Source: Mycobacterium barrassiae (GTDB taxonomy: Bacteria > Actinomycetota > Actinomycetes > Mycobacteriales > Mycobacteriaceae). Taken from it: DNA of 64,000 bases. Shown here piece by piece: positions 17,727 through 34,783 of this stretch (position 1 is its first letter; each line of letters opens with the position of its first letter). The notes below the pieces were generated by a model. It ran no database searches, had not been told where the DNA came from, and saw nothing but the letters and a program-made list of their open reading frames with translations. A program made the position numbers and the translations under genes. The stretch is taken from assembly GCF_025822765.1 (NCBI RefSeq), contig NZ_JACKUK010000020.1, positions 43,099-107,098 of the forward strand, in the 5' to 3' direction.

Positions 17727-20636
<2,910 letters not shown>

Positions 20637-20680: not shown

Positions 20681-20872
20681 TTGGCCGCTAGCCCTGACGA
20701 CATTGGATCGACGCTGCGTGAGGCTGGTCACACAGTCGCCAAAGGGTCCAAGGGGGTCGTCATGACAATCTTCATCGCAACGTCGATCACCGCAGTCGTC
20801 ACCGCATTCGGCGTCGAATGGGGTCAGCGTCAATGCGAGGCATGGGCGTTCAGCCGGGACAAGGACCTGTGA
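20681..20872 (+). CDS. possible small single-pass membrane protein downstream of uvrA
   Basis: A 63-residue frame from a TTG codon. Its middle (VVMTIFIATSITAVVTAF) is a likely membrane span, flanked by an acidic N-terminal part and a charged C-terminus (FSRDKDL). A small gene (Rv1638A) occupies this place in M. tuberculosis, which gives some support. No clear ribosome-binding site precedes the TTG, and its 3' end overlaps the opposite-strand gene by 23 bp. The N-terminus is uncertain. Confidence 0.4.
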   Translation: MAASPDDIGSTLREAGHTVAKGSKGVVMTIFIATSITAVVTAFGVEWGQRQCEAWAFSRDKDL

Positions 20873-22175
20873 CGCAACACCTTCGCCGAGACTGCGGGCA
20901 GATCGCGTTTCCGCGCTCAGACTCAAGTGGTCGCTGCAACACCTGACGGGTTCGGAGGTGTTGTTCGATGGGGTTTCGGGAGCCTGGTTGGCCGCGGGTG
21001 TCGGAGTCGGTTCGCGGGGAGTTCTGGGCCGCGGTGGGGAAGCGCGGACTGATTCGCACTCCGTCCAGCCACTCGGTCAGCTCATCAGCACGCCGCTGCA
21101 ACGCCTTCGTCGCCGCACGCCCGACATCCTCGAGCAATCGCACCTCGACTCTGCCGTCGGCATCCTGACCCCAGCCGCCGACGATGCGACCGTCGCACCA
21201 CGCCGTCGGACCGCCGTTACCGTTCGTGTCGAACACCTGGCCGCGGTGCCCGCCGAGATACCAGTCGCGGTCGAACCATCCCATGGTCGTGACGTCGAGG
21301 CCGGGCAGCAGCGCACACCACGGCTCGGCCGCCGGCTCTTCCTCCAGATCGTCGGGTAGCGCGAACCCGGGGGTCCCGTCCAGGTCCACCTCGACGGCCT
21401 CGAGATCGGCCAGTGCCTGGCGCGCCCACGTCAGCGTGTTGCCGAACCACCACTTGATATCGGTGACCGTGGCCGGGCCGAACGCCCATAACCACCTGCG
21501 AATCAACTTGGTCCGCGCGACCTCCGGCGCTGCGGTCGCGGGCGTCGAGTCTAGCCAGTCGGCCATCGACGCCCAGCGTGGCCGCGAGACCGTCCACGCT
21601 CCGTCGTTCGGTCCCCGGACGATGTCGCCGCGCACCGACAACACCGTCAGAATCCTTGGCGCCAGCGGTGTTTCGCCGCCCCACCGCTTGCCCGGCGCTG
21701 GGTCGTGTTTGCCCGCCAACTCCGGGAGCGCCGCCCGCAGGTCCTTGGCGCTGGTTGGTCCGTGTTCAGCGAGATGCCCCAAAACTGCGGCGGACGCGGC
21801 CGCCAGCCAGGCGTCGCCGTCGTCGCAGACCCCGGCCTTCTGCGCATCGGCCATGACCTTTCGGCGTTCGTTGTCCGCGACCCGATCGCTGGCCGCCGAT
21901 TGAATCAGCGGCAGATCCGCGGCGCGAACCACCCACAGCGTGCGCCGCATCGCCAGGTGCTTCACCAGGCGCCGACTGTCGTACAGCGCGGCGTCCAGAT
22001 CGGCGACCGCGAAGCCGGGCAACCGCGCCCACAACGACAGGTACGGCGTGGCCGGATCGGTGGCGTGCAATCCGACGACAGTGCCTGCGACGTCGACCGG
22101 ACTCTGGGCAGGCGCGTTGAGAAAGTGCCGCCGCGCGAGCCGGGCCCGCCGTTCGGCAATCGTGAAAGACCGCAT
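20850..22175 (-). CDS. winged-helix DNA-binding protein (HTH_42/YcaQ type) with altered C-terminus
   Basis: The 441-residue frame matches HTH_42 proteins, a winged-helix group linked with DNA-crosslink repair (YcaQ/AlkX type). Typical segments are LHATDPATPYLSLWARLP, RRTLWVVRAADLPLIQSA, WWFGNTLTWARQAL, LLPGLDVTTMGWFDRDWYLG and WLDGVRISPRFPT, which normally lies close to the end of the protein. Here about 60 unrelated residues follow, read antisense through an IS remnant (20919-21040) and beyond. The native 3' end has therefore been replaced. Function may be retained because the core is complete. Start ATG 22175 agrees with the family N-terminus (IAERRARLARRH). Confidence 0.85.
   Translation of the reverse strand: MRSFTIAERRARLARRHFLNAPAQSPVDVAGTVVGLHATDPATPYLSLWARLPGFAVADLDAALYDSRRLVKHLAMRRTLWVVRAADLPLIQSAASDRVADNERRKVMADAQKAGVCDDGDAWLAAASAAVLGHLAEHGPTSAKDLRAALPELAGKHDPAPGKRWGGETPLAPRILTVLSVRGDIVRGPNDGAWTVSRPRWASMADWLDSTPATAAPEVARTKLIRRWLWAFGPATVTDIKWWFGNTLTWARQALADLEAVEVDLDGTPGFALPDDLEEEPAAEPWCALLPGLDVTTMGWFDRDWYLGGHRGQVFDTNGNGGPTAWCDGRIVGGWGQDADGRVEVRLLEDVGRAATKALQRRADELTEWLDGVRISPRFPTAAQNSPRTDSDTRGQPGSRNPIEQHLRTRQVLQRPLESERGNAICPQSRRRCCVTGPCPG
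20919..21040 (+). mobile_element. left-end remnant of an IS30-like insertion sequence
   Basis: A short plus-strand frame begins at ATG 20968 after the ribosome-binding sequence CGGAGGTG and encodes FREPGWPRVSESVRGEFWAAV, which looks like the N-terminus of an IS30-family transposase. The preceding GACTCAAGTGGTCGCTGCAA looks like an IS terminal inverted-repeat end. The frame then breaks off at about 21040 into antisense sequence of the winged-helix gene. No right end is seen, so this is a truncated relic. Confidence 0.55.
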
Positions 22176-22292
22176 CGCCTGCGAACGCTACCTGCGGATA
22201 CCGACAAAATTTGGGATCGGTAGCGGTCGGCTCCGCCTTGACTTGGCAGCACGACGACGCCAGTGGGGCGGCGTATGACGAAGGGAAGATCG

Positions 22293-22778
22293 ATGAATCG
22301 AGTTGTCGCGGGTGTGGTCGGGCTGGCTCTCGGTACGGCCGTCCTGGTGGGCTGCTCGGACGATAAGAAGCCAGAGGCCGCGCCGAGCCCGGCTACCGGA
22401 GACACTTCGGTGAGCACGAGCGGTTCGACCGAGGTCAAGGTTGGTGGCAGCGACCTGGCCGGGCTGGATCTGAACACGGTGACCTGCGTGAAGCAGGGCG
22501 GCAAGATCAACGTTGCGAGCGCTGCGATCAACGGCCAGGCCGGTCTTGCCGTCGTGATGACGGATGAGGCGACACCGACCGTCGAATCGCTGGGCATGAC
22601 GGTGGACGGCAACGCCCTCGCCGTCACCAACATGATGGGCGCGAAGACGGGCTCCGCCGAGGTGAAGGTCGATGGCAGCACCTACACCATCACCGGTGAG
22701 GCCGCAGGCGCCGATCTGGCGAATCCGATGGCCGGCATGATCACCAAGCCGTTCACGATCAAGGTGACCTGCACCTGA
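22293..22778 (+). CDS. LpqH/19-kDa antigen-family lipoprotein
   Basis: A 161-residue predicted lipoprotein with lipobox LVGC and Cys21 as the acylated residue, then a Ser/Thr/Pro-rich linker likely to be O-glycosylated (PSPATGDTSVSTSGST). A beta-rich domain follows with a Cys pair (VTCVKQGG and the terminal VTCT). This arrangement matches the mycobacterial 19-kDa lipoprotein antigen domain of LpqH/LppE. The start is ATG at MNRVVAG, with GGGAAG upstream; ten in-frame residues before it are not signal-like. A strong hairpin terminator follows within 50 bases. Confidence 0.88.
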   Translation: MNRVVAGVVGLALGTAVLVGCSDDKKPEAAPSPATGDTSVSTSGSTEVKVGGSDLAGLDLNTVTCVKQGGKINVASAAINGQAGLAVVMTDEATPTVESLGMTVDGNALAVTNMMGAKTGSAEVKVDGSTYTITGEAAGADLANPMAGMITKPFTIKVTCT

Positions 22779-22791
22779 TCGGCAGGTTGCC

Positions 22792-22828
22792 GGAAGCGGC
22801 GGACGTACCCTCCACGTCCGCCGCTTCC
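22792..22828. terminator. strong hairpin terminator after the lipoprotein gene
   Basis: Perfect 15-bp arms GGAAGCGGCGGACGT and ACGTCCGCCGCTTCC with a 7-base loop begin 14 bases past the lipoprotein stop. The structure ends directly at the -10 box of the next gene, insulating it from upstream transcription. Confidence 0.85.
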
Positions 22829-22840: not shown

Positions 22841-24463
22841 ATGACCATCGTGGCCGACCTCGAACGGGCACGTCACTTGATATTGGCCGCAGACGAGTTC
22901 GCGGCAAAGGATCTGCTGCTGTCACTCGTCCCCGCCATCGAAGCGGCCGATCGCGACGACTGGCTGCTCGAGGTCTATGCGCAACTGGGTCAGCTCTACC
23001 TCGTTCGCACCGCATACGAGGGCACCGAGGAGTGCGCGCGGCGCATCCGCGAATGCCTTGCCACACATGCGGCGATCCGGGCGGGCGCCCGGCCCGATCT
23101 GGTTCCGCAGGTGACGATGTCGGACGCCGAAATCGACCACATGATCTGTCGGTACTCACGCCGCGCGCAGTTCCTCGAGACGGGCCTGGCCGCCGCACAC
23201 GGCGAACACGAAGCCGCGGAGGCCGCCCTGCTGGTCCTCACGGAGGACACCACCGACTATCCGGATCTCGCCGACGAGCACCGCCAATTCATCACCTTCG
23301 CGCAGATCCTGTGCGCCAACGCGCTCTGCGATGACGATCTACACGTGCAGTCGGTTCACCTGTGGGAGAAGGTGATCGATGCGATCGACGGCTCGCACCT
23401 CGACGACGAGTTCGACGACTATCTGCTGGTTTTCGGTGCCACCTCATACGGCAGGTTCTGCATCGAGACGGGTCGGCTGCCGCAAGCGCAACCGTGGTTG
23501 CGGCGGGCCGGTGCACGCGCCGAGGCGCGCGGCTGGGCGCTGGGTGCAGCACGAGCGAAGTTCGAACGGGCCACCGCGGCATGGGCTGTGGGTGATCGCG
23601 CGCTGGCTCAGGACCTGGCGCACGAGTCGTATCCGGCGATCGCCGAAGGCCTGCGCGCACACGATGTGTCGCGGTGCTGGTTGTACTTCGGGTTGATCTC
23701 GCTCTCCATCCAGAAGCTCGACGACGCCGACGAGCGCTTTGAGAACGCCGAGCGGCACTGGCGCGAGATCGAGAAGCCGCTACACATCCATCGCATCCTG
23801 TTGCAGCGCAGTTGGGTTGACATCTTCCGCGGCGACTTCGACGCCGCCCGCCGACGCACCGAAGAAGCGCGCGAACTGCTCGATTCCTGGCCGCGACACA
23901 GCTGGCTGCAGTACGCCCGCCTGCACTACCACATCGGCAGCATCTGGCGCGCCGACGCATTGGCCGACCCGGCGAACAGGGCATACAAACTCGAGCGGGC
24001 CGCCGAGCTGAAAGTGCCCGCGGCGCTTGCCGTCGACTCGGTACGGCATGCCATCGACGACGCCGACGCCAGGATGCGCTGGGCCACTCACGTCTCGGCC
24101 CGCATGCTCGCCGGCGCGTTCGCCGTTGCCTGGGAATGGGGCAACACCGAACTCCTCAGCGAGTTGGTCGAGTATCACAGTGCTCGAGGAACTTTCAGCG
24201 CGGAGCCCGACCGGGAGACCGCCGACTGGACGCGCACCGCGACCGTCGCGGTGCCGCTCGAGACCGTCGATGACTACGCGTTGGTAGCCGCGGGCGAGTC
24301 GGTGCCGGGCAGACGCGCGGCGCTGACGCGGCTCGGTCCGTTGCCGCCGCTGCAGATGGACCCCAGGACCGGAGCAATACTGACCCGCTATCGGGAACTG
24401 GCGGCCGAACGGTACGGCCGTGCCGTGACTGCGCCGGGTCCGATGTGGGCGACGTGGCCGTGA
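22841..24463 (+). CDS. TPR-repeat protein paired with a CHAT protease
   Basis: The 540-residue protein is almost entirely helical with TPR-like repeats. Examples are LLEVYAQLGQLYLVRTAYEGTE, EFDDYLLVFGATSYGRFCIE, PWLRRAGARAEARGWALG and DDADERFENAERHWREIE. No signal peptide or membrane span is present, so it is cytoplasmic. TPR proteins next to or fused with CHAT proteases usually act as sensor, scaffold or substrate for the protease. It overlaps the CHAT gene by 4 bp (GTGA). The start is the ATG 6 bases after TATGAT; 18 in-frame codons upstream lie inside the terminator hairpin and are rejected. Confidence 0.85.
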   Translation: MTIVADLERARHLILAADEFAAKDLLLSLVPAIEAADRDDWLLEVYAQLGQLYLVRTAYEGTEECARRIRECLATHAAIRAGARPDLVPQVTMSDAEIDHMICRYSRRAQFLETGLAAAHGEHEAAEAALLVLTEDTTDYPDLADEHRQFITFAQILCANALCDDDLHVQSVHLWEKVIDAIDGSHLDDEFDDYLLVFGATSYGRFCIETGRLPQAQPWLRRAGARAEARGWALGAARAKFERATAAWAVGDRALAQDLAHESYPAIAEGLRAHDVSRCWLYFGLISLSIQKLDDADERFENAERHWREIEKPLHIHRILLQRSWVDIFRGDFDAARRRTEEARELLDSWPRHSWLQYARLHYHIGSIWRADALADPANRAYKLERAAELKVPAALAVDSVRHAIDDADARMRWATHVSARMLAGAFAVAWEWGNTELLSELVEYHSARGTFSAEPDRETADWTRTATVAVPLETVDDYALVAAGESVPGRRAALTRLGPLPPLQMDPRTGAILTRYRELAAERYGRAVTAPGPMWATWP

Positions 24464-25674
24464 CTGAGACAGAGCCCGAAAACGCGACTCTCGTCCTGCG
24501 ATTCGCAGATGTCGGTGTCGCCACATATGTCAGTCTGCGTGTCGTCGGCGAGCCCGCCAGGACGGTGGCGTGGGTGCTGGAGGAGGCGGCACTCCAGGCC
24601 GCGGTCGACGAGCTGAGCGGTGCGTTACCGGATCCGCTCGGCGACGAGACCCGGCGCGACGCACTCGAACGTGCGATCACCAAAGGTTCCTTCTCCTCGC
24701 CCACAATGGAATTCGCCATCGCACGCACCATGGGTACGCATCTGTTGGTGCCCGATGCGTGGCAATTGCTGCTGGACTGTGTCGCGACCTCCAAAGCGGC
24801 GCTGTTCGTGTCACCCAGCGCGCGGCTGGCCCGCGTCCCATGGGGACTCCTTGCGATGCCCGACGACGACCGCCGACTCATCGACCTCGTCGACGTGCTG
24901 ATGGCGGCTCCACCGAACATCGTTCATTCACCGCGTGAACCCACCGGCTGGGGCGGCAGAAAGGCCAATCCGCCGCTGCTGGTCCTCGATCCCCGCGTGC
25001 CCGGTCAGCGACCGGACTCTCCGCTGGGCTCCGTACTCGGACGCCCGTCGCCCGAAACGCCCTTGGCCAGGTACTTCGCCGAGGTGATGCACCAGCGAGA
25101 GGTGTTGCCCGACGTCGCGGCGTCCGTCGACTTGTTCCGCCGTTCCGACGCGAACCGCGACTGGCTGAAGGAGCTACTGGCGCAGGCGCCGAGTCGGCTG
25201 CTGTACGTGGGTCACGCGACCGCGGCCGACGGCGACGTCGGCCATGCCGATCGGGCCGCGCTCCATCTCGCCGACGAACATCCGCTCACCGCATCGGATC
25301 TCATGGCGCTCAAGCTGCCGATCCCGCCCCGCGTCGGCCTGCTGGCATGTGCCTCCGGCGGGGATTACCGCTTCGACGAGGCCACCGGGCTGGTCGCGGC
25401 GATGATTCTGGGCGGAGCCGAGTTGGTGACGGCCACCCTGTGGTCATTGCCGACCGCTGCGGGCTATCGGCTGTTCGCGCAGGACCGCGCCGACGCCGAC
25501 CCGATGAGCGAGGCGATCCTCGCCGTCGATCGCGCACACGAAGCCCCTGAAGCCGGGCGCGCGGTCAACGACTGGCAGCGGAAACAGCTGCGGCGGTGGA
25601 GCGAAGGCGATCTCGCGGCGAGTCCGCTCTACTGGGCGGCATTGGCGACCTTCGCCGTCGACGGCGCCAGGTGA
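24460..25674 (+). CDS. CHAT-domain (caspase-like) cysteine protease
   Basis: A 404-residue protein whose C-terminal 250 residues form a CHAT domain, a caspase/separase-like peptidase. The catalytic dyad is His252 in LLYVGHATAADG and Cys297 in VGLLACASGG. The usual ARVPWGLLAMPD strand precedes the dyad, and ATGLVAAMILGGAELVTATLW follows it. The N-terminal 110 residues are of unknown type. GTG 24460 overlaps the TPR stop in GTGA; GTG 24445 is possible. CHAT proteases often work in bacterial conflict or cell-death systems; the trigger and target here are unknown. The gene abuts the stop of the opposite-strand gene exactly. Confidence 0.9.
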   Translation: MTETEPENATLVLRFADVGVATYVSLRVVGEPARTVAWVLEEAALQAAVDELSGALPDPLGDETRRDALERAITKGSFSSPTMEFAIARTMGTHLLVPDAWQLLLDCVATSKAALFVSPSARLARVPWGLLAMPDDDRRLIDLVDVLMAAPPNIVHSPREPTGWGGRKANPPLLVLDPRVPGQRPDSPLGSVLGRPSPETPLARYFAEVMHQREVLPDVAASVDLFRRSDANRDWLKELLAQAPSRLLYVGHATAADGDVGHADRAALHLADEHPLTASDLMALKLPIPPRVGLLACASGGDYRFDEATGLVAAMILGGAELVTATLWSLPTAAGYRLFAQDRADADPMSEAILAVDRAHEAPEAGRAVNDWQRKQLRRWSEGDLAASPLYWAALATFAVDGAR

Positions 25675-26139
25675 TCAGCGCGGCGACACGCAAACGGCGA
25701 CCGCGGACTCGTCGCCGGAGCGGTAGTACGTCTCGATGATGCTGCCGGGAGAGACCTTCGTGATGGCCGACGCAGGGATCAGCGCCCTCTCGTGAGCCGG
25801 AAACTGTCCGCCTTCCGGCCGATTCACGATCACGTCGAGTTCGACCTCGCGGAAGTCCTCGCAGGTGTGCCCGGTCGTCCGCATTCCCGTGACGACGGCG
25901 CGGGACTTGGTGCCGTGTCGAATCAGGGCGAGCTGACCGTCGGTGACCAGTCCCTTGCCGACCAGCATCCGGTCGAACTCGGCCCGGATGGCCAGGATGT
26001 CCTCGGTGGTGGCGAGACGTTCGTCGGCTTCGCCCGGGTCTTGGGCGGCGTCGGGGACGTCACGGTCGGGGATCAGGTAGCACAGGGCAGTGCCGACGAG
26101 CAGAAGCATGAAGAACGCAATCGAAAACGCGCTGGACAT
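25675..26139 (-). CDS. single-pass membrane protein of unknown function within the CHAT locus
   Basis: A 154-residue protein with one N-terminal membrane segment (IAFFMLLLVGTALCYLIP). An acidic linker, a short helical segment (ATTEDILAIRAEFDRMLV) and a small domain follow (LVTDGQLALIRHGTKSRAVVTGMRTTG, DVIVNRPEGGQFPAHERALIPASA). The last part resembles the small beta domain of proteins that tune linear motifs near membranes, but I recognise no family. Its stop touches the CHAT stop, and its start is 72 bases from the next divergent gene. GGGA precedes the ATG. Confidence 0.75.
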   Translation of the reverse strand: MSSAFSIAFFMLLLVGTALCYLIPDRDVPDAAQDPGEADERLATTEDILAIRAEFDRMLVGKGLVTDGQLALIRHGTKSRAVVTGMRTTGHTCEDFREVELDVIVNRPEGGQFPAHERALIPASAITKVSPGSIIETYYRSGDESAVAVCVSPR

Positions 26140-26211
26140 GTCCCTAGGTTCGGACACCGCGTCGGCTACCGAACCCAACTTTTGCGTGGTGCCCGCTCTT
26201 ATCCTGATGGA

Positions 26212-27519
26212 ATGAGCACAGACACGGCCGTCGCCGTCGCGCACCCGCGCCGGGCGGTGATCGACCGGGCGTGGCGTGCGATCGGGCCCGGGGTGGAAGT
26301 GCTCAGCGGCGACGACGGCGGCCCGCTGCGGCGCACCGTGAAGCGGATCATCGACCCGCTGGTATTGCGCCTGCGCTCCAACACTCAGTTCTCGGCGCCG
26401 TTCGTGGCGGCCGACGTGGCTGAAGCCATGCACGACGCGATCGTCGGCCAAGCCGCCCAATTGCGCGCGGCGGCGGCCTGGTTCGAGCTTCTCAAACGCG
26501 AACGCCGCCGGCTGAGGATCACCAGCGGCAACGCCCAGGAACTGTACTTCCCGGTGTGTTTCGAGCTGGCCGTGACGAAAGGTCCGCCCGCCCAGGATGA
26601 TTCCGGTGCCGCCGAAACCGTTCTGCGGGATATCCATGCCGAGCGGGACCGCACCGCGATCGAAGCGCTGAACATCTACTCGTCCGACCACCTGGTCATC
26701 AGCGAGCTGTCGGATCAGCTGCGCTCCAGCTGGAACGATGTGCGCGCCGGTACCGAGATCACGCGTCCATTCCTGTCCGGACTGACCACTGTGCTCGGCG
26801 CGGCCGACACCCACAGCGCCGCCGCAGCGCGGCAACGGGTTTGGCAGGCGCTGATCGCGGACGCGACACCGTACAACCTCGGTGCCGCAGCGCACGAGGA
26901 CGCGAAACAGCTGCCGTGGTCGATCGTGGCACTCGGGCTCAGTTCCGCTGAACCCCAACGTCCCCCGGCGGTCATCGGTGGCTCGGATAGCGAGCGACCC
27001 CTCAATCGCTCCGTGATCGACCGGGTGCGGGCGACGCTTCGCCGCGCGATGGATCGCGAAGAGCTGCCCGATATTCCGATGCTGTGCGAGGAAGAGGTCG
27101 ACCGCTGCTGCGCACCGTGGGGCCTGTTGGCGGAGGACAAGCAGGCGACCCTGGTGGCCGGGATCGAGGTCGCCGTCGACCTTGCCCCGCTGTCGGAATC
27201 CGCGACGACGCGCTACGACCTCGCCGGCCAGATCCAGGCGCGGCTGCGCAAGGAGGCGTACGTGCTGCACGCACGCCGCTACCTCGCCGGAGGCGGACCG
27301 ATCCATCCGCGTCAGCAGCAGGTGATCGACGACCTCGCGGCCTTCGCCCGGCCCTACCTGAACCGGCTTTGGGCCCGGTTGCACGGCCGTGACGTGTGGC
27401 AGGAGCCATGCGATGACGTCGACGACGTCCGCGCGCTACTGGAGGGCGTCGCGCGCTCGGTGAGCCTCGATCACCGGCAGCGGATCAAGACGATGTTGGA
27501 ACTGCAGGTGGCCGGATGA
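26212..27519 (+). CDS. helical protein of unknown function, CHAT locus
   Basis: The 435-residue product (MSTDTAVAVAHPRRAV) is mainly alpha-helical, without signal peptide or membrane segment. I recognise no domain. Noticeable are a basic helix (ELLKRERRRLRITSGN), two acidic-Cys stretches (PMLCEEEVDRCCAPW and EPCDDVDDV) and a helical C-terminus. TATCCT 6 bases before the ATG indicates a separate leaderless promoter, divergent from the membrane protein. It is coupled by an ATGA overlap to the next gene. Position next to TPR-CHAT suggests a shared process, which is inference only. Confidence 0.8.
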   Translation: MSTDTAVAVAHPRRAVIDRAWRAIGPGVEVLSGDDGGPLRRTVKRIIDPLVLRLRSNTQFSAPFVAADVAEAMHDAIVGQAAQLRAAAAWFELLKRERRRLRITSGNAQELYFPVCFELAVTKGPPAQDDSGAAETVLRDIHAERDRTAIEALNIYSSDHLVISELSDQLRSSWNDVRAGTEITRPFLSGLTTVLGAADTHSAAAARQRVWQALIADATPYNLGAAAHEDAKQLPWSIVALGLSSAEPQRPPAVIGGSDSERPLNRSVIDRVRATLRRAMDREELPDIPMLCEEEVDRCCAPWGLLAEDKQATLVAGIEVAVDLAPLSESATTRYDLAGQIQARLRKEAYVLHARRYLAGGGPIHPRQQQVIDDLAAFARPYLNRLWARLHGRDVWQEPCDDVDDVRALLEGVARSVSLDHRQRIKTMLELQVAG

Positions 27520-28604
27520 AGTTGATGTCAGATTCCGGCCTGTGGAGTACGGGACCCGTGGTGGCGCCCTCTCCGCTGCAGGCCGTGCTCGAGATCAGTG
27601 GGGCGGTCCTGTCGTGGACGGTGGACGAGCCCGCCGCCGATCCACAGATCACGTTCACCGATTTGTCCCGTGCGGACTGGCTGTGGCAGGTGCTCGGTGA
27701 GAGCGGCCATCACGCCGTCGCCTCTGCCGTCGGTCACTCCTCACCGGACGACGCACAATCAGTCGACCTCACCGGGGTGCATGTGCTGCCCGGATCGCTG
27801 GATCCGCTGCGCCGGTTGGCATTCGGCCATTGGCTGCGGCGTTGGTGGCCGACGAGTCACCGCGACGGGATCGCGGCCCTGGACGCAGCGCTGCTGGACG
27901 CGGAGATCGCGATCCTGACGGCGGGTGCGGAGGACTTCTTCACCGATGACACGTTCGACTCCGACGTCGCCGAGATCTTGCGGCCGCACGTCGCGGCGCT
28001 GGGCGCCCATGTGCACGAGGGTGATCCGCGCATCGTCGAGTTGGTGGAGAAGTGCGCTGACCTGGCCGACGAGGTGGGCATCGCGTTCGACACCGTCGCC
28101 CAACCGTCGCGACGGGACGACTACGCGCTCGCCGCGGGCGGCGAAACCGGCGGCACCGCATCGACGACGGTCGCGTCGGGCGCCGGATCGGTCCAGTGGT
28201 CGGCCGTGCCGGCCGGAATATTCGATGCGGCCGAGGACACCGTCGACTGGAGTATCGAAGCCGCGGACGACGCGGCGACGGCGAGCGTGCGAGTCGAACT
28301 CGCGGGTCTGGGCTCGCCCAACGGCATCGCCGTCCGGCTGCGTTCCGGCCCGTTCGAAGGCGAGGGCGAGCTGGGGGCCGACGGGCGGGCGGAGTTTCCG
28401 CTCGTGGACGCCGAGGGGCAGCCGTTGTCGGAATCGGCGGCCTGGGGCCATGATTGGCGCCATACGTCGGTGGTCATCGGCGCGGATGTGGGGGAGTCTG
28501 TGGAGACCCGTGAGCGGGTCCGGGACTTCGCGAGGTCGCGGCTGGCCGCACCGGGCGCCGACGCCTTCCTGGCCGAGATCCTGGCCGCCGAATCCGACTA
28601 CTGA
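27516..28604 (+). CDS. acidic protein with C-terminal beta domain, unknown function, CHAT locus
   Basis: A 362-residue acidic protein (MKLMSDSGLW) sharing an ATGA overlap with the upstream gene, so both are likely made together. The first 200 residues are helical (ADWLWQVLGESGHHAV, RRLAFGHWLRRWWP, HVAALGAHVHEGDPRIVELVEKCADLADE). Residues about 220-330 alternate strands and turns (TVDWSIEAADDAATASVRVEL, GIAVRLRSGPFEGEGELG) like an immunoglobulin-type sandwich. No known family is recognised. The stop overlaps the convergent downstream gene by 7 bp. Confidence 0.8.
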   Translation: MKLMSDSGLWSTGPVVAPSPLQAVLEISGAVLSWTVDEPAADPQITFTDLSRADWLWQVLGESGHHAVASAVGHSSPDDAQSVDLTGVHVLPGSLDPLRRLAFGHWLRRWWPTSHRDGIAALDAALLDAEIAILTAGAEDFFTDDTFDSDVAEILRPHVAALGAHVHEGDPRIVELVEKCADLADEVGIAFDTVAQPSRRDDYALAAGGETGGTASTTVASGAGSVQWSAVPAGIFDAAEDTVDWSIEAADDAATASVRVELAGLGSPNGIAVRLRSGPFEGEGELGADGRAEFPLVDAEGQPLSESAAWGHDWRHTSVVIGADVGESVETRERVRDFARSRLAAPGADAFLAEILAAESDY

Positions 28605-29030: not shown

Positions 29031-30035
29031 ATGGGGACATCCGTGTTCGACCACGTGGACTTCGAAGTCATCCGCCAAGTGCCTGAGCTGGAGCATTACC
29101 GGCGTGAGTGGATACCGCGCGAAGGTCTGGGTCTGGCCGGTATCTGGATCGGCGCGGTGGTCAGCGATGCCTCTGGTCAGAGCTACTGGGGAGTGCGCGG
29201 CTGCGAGGACTTCCTCACCGGAATGACCCACGTCGTGTCGCCGGTGTGCGGATTTCGTTCGCTTCCCAAGGGGCTCGACGGCGACGCCTCGCATCTGTTC
29301 GCCGAGTACTCCACGCTCGACTGGTTTGAGCCCATGCAGTATCTCGACAGCGGCGAGGCGATCCAGCTGACGTTTCCGAGCGGACGAATCGAACGCGACG
29401 CCGACGGGTTTCACTGGCATGACGCCAGCAACCGCTGGGAACTCCACGGTCGGACAGTCAGCGATATCGTCCTCACCCACGTGCCCGTACAGCAGGGTGT
29501 CGAAGACGACGTCTACTACCGCCACGAGCTGATGTACCTCACCGGCACCATCGACGGCACCGAGGTGTCTGGGTACGGACATCAGGATTTCGCCTACGGT
29601 CCGCCAGGGAAGATATATACCGAACTGCCGATCGCGCGCCATCTGCAAGGCATGTGGGTGTCATGGCTTCACGAGTTCGCCGACGGAGAACTCGGCGGCG
29701 GAAGTTTTTGGCAGGGCAAGGAACACGTCACGTTCGGTCCCGGTTATCAGCTCAAGGACGGTGTCACCACGGTGCACAAAGACATCGTCGCGACACCGAC
29801 GTTCACCGAAACCGGCAAGATGGCGACCTTGGATACCACCATCGGAACCGATTCGTACACCTTCACTTTCGACTCCACGGGCAGTCCGTTGCACTTCTTC
29901 GGACCCTTGACCGCGAGCTCGTCGGGCAAGCAGCCGGTGCGGAGTTGGTGCTGGGTCGAATACGCCGGAGGACTGCTCACGCCCGAACTCCTGGACGCAG
30001 CGACGGGAGTGTTCGCCCTGGCGCGCGGGCGCTGA
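29031..30035 (+). CDS. conserved protein of unknown function, lipocalin/AttH-like appearance
   Basis: The 334-residue product is rich in beta strands with many aromatic residues (SYWGVRGCEDFL, DGFHWHDASNRWELHGR, WVSWLHEFADGELGGGSFWQG, RSWCWVEYAGG). The repeated W/Y/H-x-G/D pattern recalls lipocalin-type AttH or carotenoid 1,2-hydratase-like proteins, but I am not certain. No signal peptide. ATG 29031 has only GCGGGG upstream; GTG 29043 (FDHVDFEVIRQ) may be the true start. Little can be said about function. Confidence 0.75.
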   Translation: MGTSVFDHVDFEVIRQVPELEHYRREWIPREGLGLAGIWIGAVVSDASGQSYWGVRGCEDFLTGMTHVVSPVCGFRSLPKGLDGDASHLFAEYSTLDWFEPMQYLDSGEAIQLTFPSGRIERDADGFHWHDASNRWELHGRTVSDIVLTHVPVQQGVEDDVYYRHELMYLTGTIDGTEVSGYGHQDFAYGPPGKIYTELPIARHLQGMWVSWLHEFADGELGGGSFWQGKEHVTFGPGYQLKDGVTTVHKDIVATPTFTETGKMATLDTTIGTDSYTFTFDSTGSPLHFFGPLTASSSGKQPVRSWCWVEYAGGLLTPELLDAATGVFALARGR

Positions 30036-31450: not shown

Positions 31451-34400
31451 CTAGCGCGGCTTGGCCAGCGGGAAGGGGAGCGTCTCGCGGATGCTGCGGC
31501 CGGTGATCAACATGACGACCCGGTCGACACCCATGCCGAGACCACCCGTCGGCGGCATCGCGTACTCCATGGCCTGCAGGAAGTCCTCGTCGAGCTCCAT
31601 GGCCTCCGGATCGCCGCCCGCGGCCAGCAGAGACTGTTCCTGCAGTCGCCGACGCTGCTCGACGGGATCGGTCAGCTCGCTGTAGGCGGTGCCCAGTTCG
31701 ACGCCCCACGCCACCAGATCCCAGCGCTCGGCGACGCCGGGGATGCTGCGGTGTGGCCGCGTCAGCGGTGAGACCGAGGTGGGGAAGTCCTTGTAGAAGG
31801 TCGGCGCCTCGGTGCGGTCCTCGACGAGGTGCTCGTACAGTTCGAGCACCACGGCGCCGGCGTCCCAGTGGGTCAGGTAGGGGATCTTCGCGCTGTCGCA
31901 CAGCTTGCGCAGCGTCGTGAGATCCGTTTCGGGCCCGATCTGCTCTCCCAAGGCCTCCGACACCGCGTCGTGCACGGTCTTGACCGTCCACTCGCCCGAA
32001 ATGTCAACGGGCTCCAACGCGCCGTCGTCGCGTGGTCGCATGAACACGTGGGCTCCGTTGGCGGCCTGCGCGGCGTTCTGGATCAACTCGCGGCAACCGT
32101 CGATCCACACGTTGTAGTCCGCGTGCGCTTGGTAGGCCTCCAGCAGCGTGAACTCGGGATTGTGGCTGAAGTCGACGCCCTCGTTACGAAATGCCCTGCC
32201 CAGTTCGAAGACTCGCTCGACGCCGCCCACGCACAGCCGCTTGAGGTAAAGCTCGGGCGCGATCCGCAGGTACAGGTCGAGGTCGTAGGCATTGATATGG
32301 GTCAGGAAGGGCCTGGCGTTTGCGCCGCCGTGTATCTGCTGGAGAATCGGCGTCTCGACCTCCAAAAACCCCTTACCGACCAGGGTTTCGCGGATCGCGT
32401 GCAAAACAGCGCTGCGCGCACGGATCAGATCGCGGGCCTCGGTGTTGATGGCCAGGTCGACGTACCGGGCGCGTACCCGTGCCTCCTGATCGGTCAGCCC
32501 CTTCCACTTGTCGGGCAAGGGGCGCAGGCACTTGCCGATCAAGCGCCAGTTGAGCACGATCAGCGACCGCGTGCCCTTCTTGCTGTAGCCCATCGTGCCC
32601 GTCACCTGAATCAGGTCGCCCAGATCGATGGCGTGGGTGAAGTCGGCCGTCGTGCCCTCTTCGAGCTGTGAATTGTCAAGCAGCAGTTGCACTTCACCGG
32701 ACCAGTCGCGTAGCTGCGCGAAGAGCACACCACCGTAGTCGCGGATGCGGAGCACTCGTCCCGCCACCGTCACAGTGCCCGCGCCCTCGGATTCGACCGC
32801 CCCCTGGATGGTGTGGCTGGGTTCTTCGCCGACGGGATATGCGTCGATTCCGCTGTCCTGCAACGCCTTCAGTTTGGCCATCCGGACCCGGACCTGTTCG
32901 GGCAGCCGCGACTGCTCGTCCTCATCCAAGCCGACTTGGAGCTCGTCGGCATCGGGTGCGGAGCCGTCATGGTGCAGCAGGCCCCGGTCGACGATGCTCT
33001 GTGGCACCGCCGTGTGGTGGCCGGTGTGGGGCTGTTCGTGCCGGCGCGAGAACGGCAGCACCAAGAAGCCTTCGGCGATCACCGACGCCACGCCGACGCG
33101 GGGGACCAGGCGTGCGTCCTCGTAGCACGCGTAGCGCGGCACCCACTCGGGCTGATACTTCATGTTCGAGCGGTACAGCGTCTCCAGCTGCCACCAGCGC
33201 GAGAAGAACACCAGCAGGGCCCGCCACAGCCGCGCGATCGGTCCGGCGCCGAGCTGGGCGCCCTGTTCGAAGGCCGATCGGAACATCGCGAAGTTCAGCG
33301 AAATGCGGCTGACGCCAATGCCTTCGGCCTGTTGGCAGAGCTCGCTGACCATGAGTTCGATGGTGCCGTTGGGGGACTGGGGTGACCGGCGCATGAGGTC
33401 GAGCGACACTCCGTTGGCGCCCCACGGCACCAGAGACAGCATCGCGACGACCTGGCCGCCGTCTGCGCCGGGTTGAACGGCCTCGACGAGCAGACAGTCG
33501 CCGTCGGCCGGGTCGCCGAGTCGGCCCAGCGCCATGGAGAACCCTCGCTCGTCGTCTGTGTCGCGCCAGGCATCGGCCCGCTCGATCACACGGGCCATCT
33601 CGTCGGCGTCGAGATCGCGGTGTCGTCGAATCCGCACCGAGGCTCCCGCACGTCGCGCGCGGGTCACCGCCTGGCGCACGGCGCGCATGTCCGGCCCCGA
33701 CAGCCGGAAGTTGTCCGGGTAGAGGATCGCCTCGTCGCCGAGTTGCAACGCGTTGAGACCGGCGGCCCGGAATGCCTCGGCTCCAGCGGAACTCGCACCC
33801 ATCACCCCGGGCGCCCAGCCGTAGGCCTGGCACAGCGACAGCCACGCCTCGATCGCCTGCGGCCACGCCTTGGGGTCGCCGACCGGGTCGCCGCTGGCAA
33901 GGCAGACGCCGACCTCCACGCGGTAGGTGACTGCGGCGCGGCCGTTTGATGCGAACACGACCGACTTGTCGCGGCGCGTCGCGAAGTAGCCCAACGAGTC
34001 GTTCTTGCCGTACAACTCGAGCAGACCGCGGATCGCCGACTCGTCTTCTCCGGTGAGCGCGTTCTCCGCACGTTGGGACTGGAACAACACGATCGCCGCC
34101 ACCATCAGCGCCAGGGCCCCGAAGAGGCCGAGTAGCGCATTGACGAAGACGTGCGGGTGACCGGTGAACGCGTCGGCACTGGCGCCTGCAAACGCGCCCA
34201 CCCGGTTCAGTGCGTAGAAGAAGCGGTCCTCGCGAGCCAGTGTTCCCGGGAACAGCTCTAGCAGGCCCCATCCGATCAGGGTGCCGACGATCAAGCCGGC
34301 GATGAGTGTCGCCGCGGCTTTGAACAGCGCGCCGCGGCGCACCTTGGCCCAGAACTCCTTGCGCGCCAGCACCAGGAACGCGATCGCGGCGAGATGGAAG

Positions 34401-34783
34401 CCCAGCCCGATGATCTCGCCACTTTCCTCGAGCCACGTTTCGTCGCCGGAGACGAGGTCGCCGATGTTCCAGCCGATGGCCGCGACCATGTAGCCGACGA
34501 GGATCCACCACGCGATGCTCTTGCGGGCCGCCAGCGCTGCCGCCAGCAGCGCCAGCACGAACGCCCACGCGAAGCTGGTGTCGGGGAAGTTGAAGATGTA
34601 GTCGTTGACGAACTCGCGCGGCACCTTGATCAGGGACCGGACCAACGGCGACACACTCGCAAGGAGCGACAGAGTGGCGATGACGCCGACGGTCCAGCCG
34701 GCCGCGGCGGGCACCCACCGGAACGCAGAGGTTCGGCGCGCGTTGGCCTTGTTCGCCGGGCTCGACTGGCTAGTCACCGTCAT
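31451..34783 (-). CDS. lysX: bifunctional lysylphosphatidylglycerol synthase / lysyl-tRNA synthetase
   Basis: LysX charges tRNA with lysine and transfers the lysine to phosphatidylglycerol, making the membrane less anionic and more resistant to cationic peptides. The 1110-residue protein has an MprF-like membrane part (about 1-260), the DUF2156 lysyl-transfer domain (about 270-600), an OB-fold anticodon domain (about 675-770) and a class II synthetase core. Motif 2 is [19 protein letters not shown] and motif 3 is [11 protein letters not shown]. It matches M. tuberculosis LysX (Rv1640c). TATCCT 8 bases before the ATG is a plausible -10 box; a dyad lies just upstream. Confidence 0.97.

Follow-up and report, generated by a model that had tools for sequence, protein, structure and literature searches.

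Caspase-like proteases, those with a CHAT domain included, are common in bacteria and few have a known output, and a locus in Mycobacterium barrassiae raises the question of what such a protease controls when it is encoded beside a TPR protein and two coupled genes of no known family. We analysed a 64,000-nucleotide stretch of this genome (NCBI RefSeq assembly GCF_025822765.1, contig NZ_JACKUK010000020.1, positions 43,099 to 107,098 of the forward strand), which we refer to as the window and number from its first letter. It contains a cassette made up of an lpqH-like lipoprotein gene, genes for a TPR protein and a CHAT protease, and three further genes, P3, P4 and P5. The first-pass annotation of the window had seen in this locus a candidate defence or cell-death system; neither the membership of the lpqH-like gene nor a 14-bp element at 22211-22224 and 26165-26178 formed part of it. 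Cassette and element come and go together in actinobacteria, which suggests, as far as sequence can tell, an undescribed protease-controlled gene switch, and its output is readable from the genome as a defined promoter element plus a list of target genes. It is these element sites and their targets that lead us to favour transcriptional control of an envelope regulon over defence.

The element, TTGGGWTCGGTAGC, precedes both the lpqH-like gene and P3, a membrane-protein gene. The promoter copy of the lpqH-like gene, TTGGGATCGGTAGC, occupies 22211..22224 on the plus strand with the -10-like hexamer TTGACT 13 nt on (22238-22243), and the copy facing P3 occupies 26165..26178 on the minus strand, where it reads TTGGGTTCGGTAGC (GCTACCGAACCCAA on the plus strand) and is followed 13 nt on by the -10-like GAACCT. 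Across a first set of 80 genomes (that of the window, 47 of the same genus and 32 others of the order) the element was found at 177 sites; the genomes that hold them are precisely the 35 with P4 and P5, the other 45 having 0 sites, and a control with the pattern written backwards gave 5 sites over the 80 genomes. In a second set of 396 genomes of the phylum, all 11 genomes with a full P4, five shared with the first set and six not, have the element (TTGGGWTCGGTAGS), and single sites occur in 5 of the remaining 385, the same level as the control (6 sites in 5 genomes); among the P4 calls of this set, one gene is in two pieces (G128), and a fragment in G284 (E=8e-4), which has no site, was discounted. 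A cognate element thus stands at target promoters and co-occurs with the candidate factor, as for a transcription factor with a regulon, and by sequence comparison the link between cassette and element is strong. As 29 of the 35 genomes carry more than two sites, most sites lie outside the cassette. The M. barrassiae genome itself has eight; a search with a 20-mer (≤3 mismatches, control 1) had returned the two cassette sites only, a count that is wrong for the shorter element.

Conservation at the cassette was followed in 80 loci, the best 80 of 462 P4 stretches in a named genome collection. A near-invariant GCTACCGAACCCAACTT lies upstream of P4 in 78 of the 80 (20-mer, ≤5 mismatches), including L104 and L174, where P3 was not found, and GCTACCGATCCCAA, on the other strand, lies upstream of lpqH in 67 of 71 loci (18-mer, ≤4 mismatches), the same search giving 7 further matches, at 4 mismatches, elsewhere in the loci. 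The exact element also occurs at the cassette of another genus (G076), and variants with one or two changes occur further afield, TTGGGATCGGTAGG at the Nocardia and G128 cassettes and CTGGGATCGGTAGG in two Streptomyces plasmids, the plasmid search covering the records of three of six plasmid P4 homologues. The cassette proteins of G076, Nocardia and Streptomyces are about 32-44% identical to those of the window. In Streptomyces and Nocardia the last base of the element is G and, by eye, a TANNNT-like hexamer follows some 14-15 nt on. In two Streptomyces loci the element precedes a gene for a small MGxFxxRxSREE... protein of no Pfam family (L063:9317-9739 and L064 near 17744, both on the minus strand); the L064 neighbourhood has two copies, and the first residues resemble the MGFFDKAK... 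regulon proteins of mycobacteria. The element was also found in at least 120 stretches of viral contigs, as expected by chance for a 14-mer in a collection so large.

What kind of site this is emerges from 101 distinct sites that lie away from the cassette stretches fetched, drawn from a listing of 150 of the 177 sites; these include at least one cassette lpqH on a split contig (L244 in G021, probably the cassette's own Myco_19_kDa copy), perhaps also L292 in G005. The hexamer 13 nt past the element holds 5.32 bits, the highest of 36 offsets (about 0.5-1.4 at those that lie beyond the overlapping ones), and its consensus is -10-like (T77 G52 T42 A72 C69 T90, in percent over the 101 sites). Activation is suggested because this 13-nt spacing is fixed and the element replaces the -35 position. 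The same two features speak against reading the element as a repressor operator, or as a site otherwise read by P4/P5 (for example one to be silenced), through which the cassette would restrain envelope genes; were it a mere operator, cassette-less genomes should often keep a -35. In favour of restraint, sequence cannot separate an activator from a repressor, and the element also sits just upstream of the P4 promoter; we hold this reading to be very improbable.

The genes behind these sites point to the cell envelope. They were picked by a rough script (longest frame favoured by third-position GC content), and several picks are visibly wrong, such as those at L241, L243, L255 and L281. A hydrophobic N-terminus was nonetheless found in 67 of 101 downstream picks versus 9 of 101 divergent-gene control picks (71/15, 57/6 and 31/5 at other hydrophobicity thresholds), and a lipobox in 10 versus 1. 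Ten picks tested or re-tested for families include a PE protein (L224), DUF6636 (L208), DUF4232 (L213), Myco_19_kDa (L244 and L292) and MbtH (L206, where the gene starts about 220 nt from the element site); small membrane proteins at such sites have no Pfam family, nor do several small secreted ones carrying a WCPG motif. At L199:2988-3034 two sites stand back to back with 7 bp between them (G000:C39:52235 and 52256); a gene for a small secreted protein follows each, and the pair is, by its layout, a compact divergent promoter.

These targets bear on the proposal of a defence or cell-death system, in which CHAT would be the effector, P4/P5 its substrates or sensors, and the element would only set dosage. 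Precedents exist, in that TPR-partnered CHAT proteases act in type III-E CRISPR (in a passage of PMC10028731) and caspases are common in conflict systems (in passages of PMC8195603 and PMC7159879). Against this, the extra element sites genome-wide precede secreted and membrane genes, the loci share one gene set with no variable effector gene seen in any of the 80, and neither P4 nor CHAT has a match in 50,697 phage records. Among the five cassette proteins PADLOC gave a sole match, a methyltransferase model hit by P4 at E=0.024, which we regard as noise. Nothing in support of the defence proposal was found, there being no evidence for or against it beyond this absence of matches, and we consider it improbable.

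The cassette behaves as one unit, as the coupling of P4 and P5 to TPR-CHAT proposed in the first-pass annotation implies. All four genes are present in 34 of the 80 genomes of the first set, P4-P5 alone in 1, and neither P4 nor P5 in 45; put by gene, the totals are 35 for P4 and P5 and 34 for TPR, with CHAT in the same 34 genomes, so that 34 of 35 P4-positive genomes have both TPR and CHAT. One further genome (G061) has a weak partial CHAT match, the rest of the cassette being absent. In the 80 loci P5 is present in 80, CHAT in 79, a TPR match in 77 and lpqH in 71, and the 9 loci lacking lpqH have <3.9 kb of sequence upstream of P4; judging from these loci, the lpqH-like gene is part of the cassette unit and travels with P4-P5 and TPR-CHAT. 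P4-P5 are thus not regularly found apart from TPR-CHAT. The exception, G005 (locus L166), has P4-P5 and no detected TPR or CHAT, in an assembly that is 84% complete in 720 contigs, and in place of CHAT a serine/threonine protein-kinase gene (L166:152-2047, minus strand; PF00069 E=6e-42) lies beside P4-P5; either the assembly has a gap here or the switch has a variant driven by the kinase. Two other cassettes are either decaying or affected by assembly errors: in L082 (G031) P4 and TPR are split into several frames and 7 element sites remain, and in L092 (G045) P4 and P5 are split likewise and 4 remain.

The unit occupies more than one chromosomal site. It lies between uvrA and lysX in one group, and in M. 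asiaticum (L160, the slow-grower locus whose flanks were identified) in a stretch with an aspartate aminotransferase gene, whilst in Nocardia farcinica and the two Streptomyces plasmids the gene order is P4-P5-TPR-CHAT. In 12 of 12 cassette-less genomes the stretch downstream of uvrA contains no lpqH, TPR, CHAT, P3, P4 or P5 (lysX was reached in 11). Parsimony on a tree built from the uvrA genes of 41 genomes (27 with and 14 without the cassette) requires at least 11 presence changes, and the element follows the cassette at each. This history tells against a regulator or sigma factor encoded elsewhere that reads the element, with the cassette as one target lost along with it, since such a regulator would have to be gained and lost with the cassette in about 11 changes and be common to the G076, Nocardia and Streptomyces cassettes. 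In its favour, two promoters within the cassette bear the element, as those of any target would, and no DNA-binding domain was recognised in the cassette proteins; we regard it as unlikely.

Our preferred reading, which we hold to be somewhat probable, is that lpqH-TPR-CHAT-(P3)-P4-P5 forms a self-contained switch, linked to the protease, that controls transcription of an envelope regulon, with P4/P5 as its reader. P4, with P5, would recognise TTGGGWTCGGTAGC in place of a -35, 13 nt before the -10-like hexamer, and turn on genes for small secreted proteins, lipoproteins and membrane proteins, including the cassette's own lpqH and P3 (autoregulation). The TPR protein would sense a signal, on which CHAT would cut P5 or P4 and so release or end promoter activity. 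P4, perhaps with P5, is the simplest account of the reader because all 35 genomes with the element have P4-P5, against 34 with TPR-CHAT, and because the element is kept at distant cassettes; we assign reading to P4/P5 rather than to TPR-CHAT because G005 has P4-P5 and 4 sites without detected TPR/CHAT. The roles of target, inhibitor or sensor offered in the first-pass annotation for these two proteins were too narrow: their linkage to the protease stands, and the evidence favours casting them as the part that reads the promoter. What we infer here is which protein reads the element, whether regulation is positive or negative, what the signal is and what the protease cuts, and several points weigh on the other side. 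Co-occurrence is not binding; a regulator whose gene lies outside the cassette and is lost together with it is an alternative; cleavage of P4 or P5 is argued by analogy; P4 and P5 have no recognisable DNA-binding domain in family scans, the P4 model being poor; and the window's P4 is slightly acidic (isoelectric point, pI, 5.98). The regulon can also be nearly cassette-only, with two sites in G020 and G029 and one in each of four genomes, the uvrA tree is that of a single gene and was built without support testing, and the G005 assembly is incomplete.

The proteins themselves offer few family clues, in keeping with the first-pass annotation, which could place neither P4 nor P5. Searches of Pfam, NCBIfam and PADLOC assigned P3, P4 and P5 to no family; Pfam scans of 12 P4 and 11 P5 relatives gave isolated weak matches (best E 0.053 and 0.35, one member each), the 12 P4 members showed no sigma domain (regions 2 and 4) up to E=10, and PDB sequence searches with P4 and P5 returned no meaningful match. 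Structure models were built on alignments holding 41 of the 80 P4 proteins fetched and 40 of the 80 for P5. The P5 model (mean predicted local distance difference test, pLDDT, 83.5) combines mixed helices with a C-terminal beta-sandwich region, and its best PDB fold match has E=0.11, none falling below E 0.001; that of P4 is helical but poor (pLDDT 53.2), and its fold search, also with no PDB match below E 0.001, is meaningless with such a model. Many factor-inhibitor pairs consist of a basic factor and an acidic partner, like P4 and P5: P4 has a basic pI in Nocardia, Streptomyces and G076 (9.2-9.9), and P5 an acidic one throughout (4.3-5.4). P3 was detected in 33 of 80 loci; elsewhere another small minus-strand frame fills the gap (by eye, in L160), and in L104 and L174, where P3 was not found, the gap shrinks to 79 and 62 nt.

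In the window all genes of the first-pass annotation lie where it had placed them. The lpqH-like gene (22263..22778, plus strand; Myco_19_kDa, PF05481 E=2.9e-29), whose true start may be an ATG a few codons downstream, is followed by a hairpin with a 15-bp stem (22792..22828), which the annotation had noted upstream of the TPR gene; the gap folds at -36.2 kcal/mol, and 69 of 69 relatives with a 20-150 nt gap fold below -15. The TPR gene (22841..24463, plus strand; 540 aa) overlaps the CHAT gene (24460..25674, plus strand; 404 aa) by 4 nt, and the two are fused in Streptomyces L063 and in G076. The window's TPR match is itself weak (TPR_12 E=0.026) and is clear in homologues (TPR_12 4.9e-15 in Nocardia, TPR_MalT 3.2e-9 in Streptomyces). 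The CHAT domain is clear (PF12770 E=2.7e-17), and the dyad reported as intact is invariant, both His252 and Cys297 being kept in 78 of 78 CHAT proteins aligned (the window's and 77 relatives, proteins <395 residues dropped), which places it in the CHAT peptidase family. P3 (25675..26139, minus strand; 154 aa), a membrane-anchored small protein, has a leaderless start 7 nt past its -10-like hexamer, and -10-like hexamers directly 5' of the TPR and P4 starts fit predicted leaderless promoters. P4 (26212..27519, plus strand; 435 aa, all-helical), the proposed promoter-reading factor, and P5 (27516..28604, plus strand; 362 aa), its proposed partner or inhibitor, are coupled by an ATGA overlap; P4-P5 are present in 80 of 80 loci, and the overlap is 4 nt wherever both were measured. 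The nearest named P4 relatives, in M. neglectum and M. tusciae, are 91% identical. The cassette sits between uvrA (17727-20636) and lysX (31451-34783), gene names being assigned from sequence. Divergent to lpqH in this setting is an AlkZ-like DNA glycosylase gene (20850-22175, minus strand; PF06224 E=1.7e-67), retained where the cassette is absent (e.g. G013, G027), and a 334-aa gene with a weak DUF7064 match (29031-30035, plus strand) occurs, among the compared loci, in the window and G039 only.

If the preferred reading is true, a surface-protein control circuit operates in many non-tuberculous mycobacteria and some streptomycetes, with PE proteins, an LpqH-family lipoprotein and numerous small secreted proteins under its control, and protease-to-transcription signalling extends beyond CRISPR. 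With the output readable from the genome, substrate, trigger and DNA reader can be put directly to the test. The protease is of a known family; the rest of the system we call new on the grounds that CASP, CATRA, PADLOC and sigma matches are absent, that no PDB fold matched P5 below E 0.001, and that literature searches (with the element letters, and for CHAT with TPR and mycobacteria) found no paper on element or cassette. The first cassette gene belongs to the LpqH, or Mycobacterium 19 kDa antigen, family (PF05481), further members of which occur at element sites L244 and L292; unlike the known setting of that family, it is here a constant member of a protease cassette that has a common promoter element. 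CATRA stands for caspase and TPR associated. The CATRA ternary conflict systems, as a section of PMC8195603 describes them, combine an actinobacterial caspase-like protease, TPR and constant partner genes, and the cassette resembles them in all three; in contrast, P4, P5 and their relatives match no CATRA model in Pfam (CATRA-N, CATRA-C and CATASP, up to E=10), and CATRA-N (PF20269) had no match in the M. barrassiae genome, though control genomes were silent too. The closest parallel in logic is type III-E CRISPR, where, according to the portion of PMC10028731 consulted, the TPR-CHAT protein Csx29 cleaves Csx30, an inhibitor of the extracytoplasmic function (ECF) sigma factor CASP-sigma, which once freed also regulates its own locus. 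Both systems set TPR-CHAT beside proteins of no known family, and both tie it to promoter-specific transcription with autoregulation, predicted here from the element. The differences are that the cassette has no CRISPR effector or sigma gene and uses a 14-bp promoter element: of the genes searched for, the window and the 80 loci show only those of the cassette and housekeeping ones, with no gRAMP/Cas7-11 or CRISPR array (no dedicated array tool was used), no Csx30-like substrate or ECF sigma factor was found in the locus, P4 and P5 having no family or meaningful PDB match, and no PDB chain was matched by the fused L063 TPR-CHAT protein (phmmer) or a CHAT profile (hmmsearch). We tentatively put forward a bolder possibility, that P4, with P5, is the first of a new class of factors that recognise promoters and show no sequence relationship to sigma or helix-turn-helix proteins. 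It would read a 14-bp element that mycobacteria share with Streptomyces, would be switched by TPR-CHAT to remodel the cell surface, and might then be the CRISPR-free, standalone counterpart of Csx29-Csx30-CASP-sigma.

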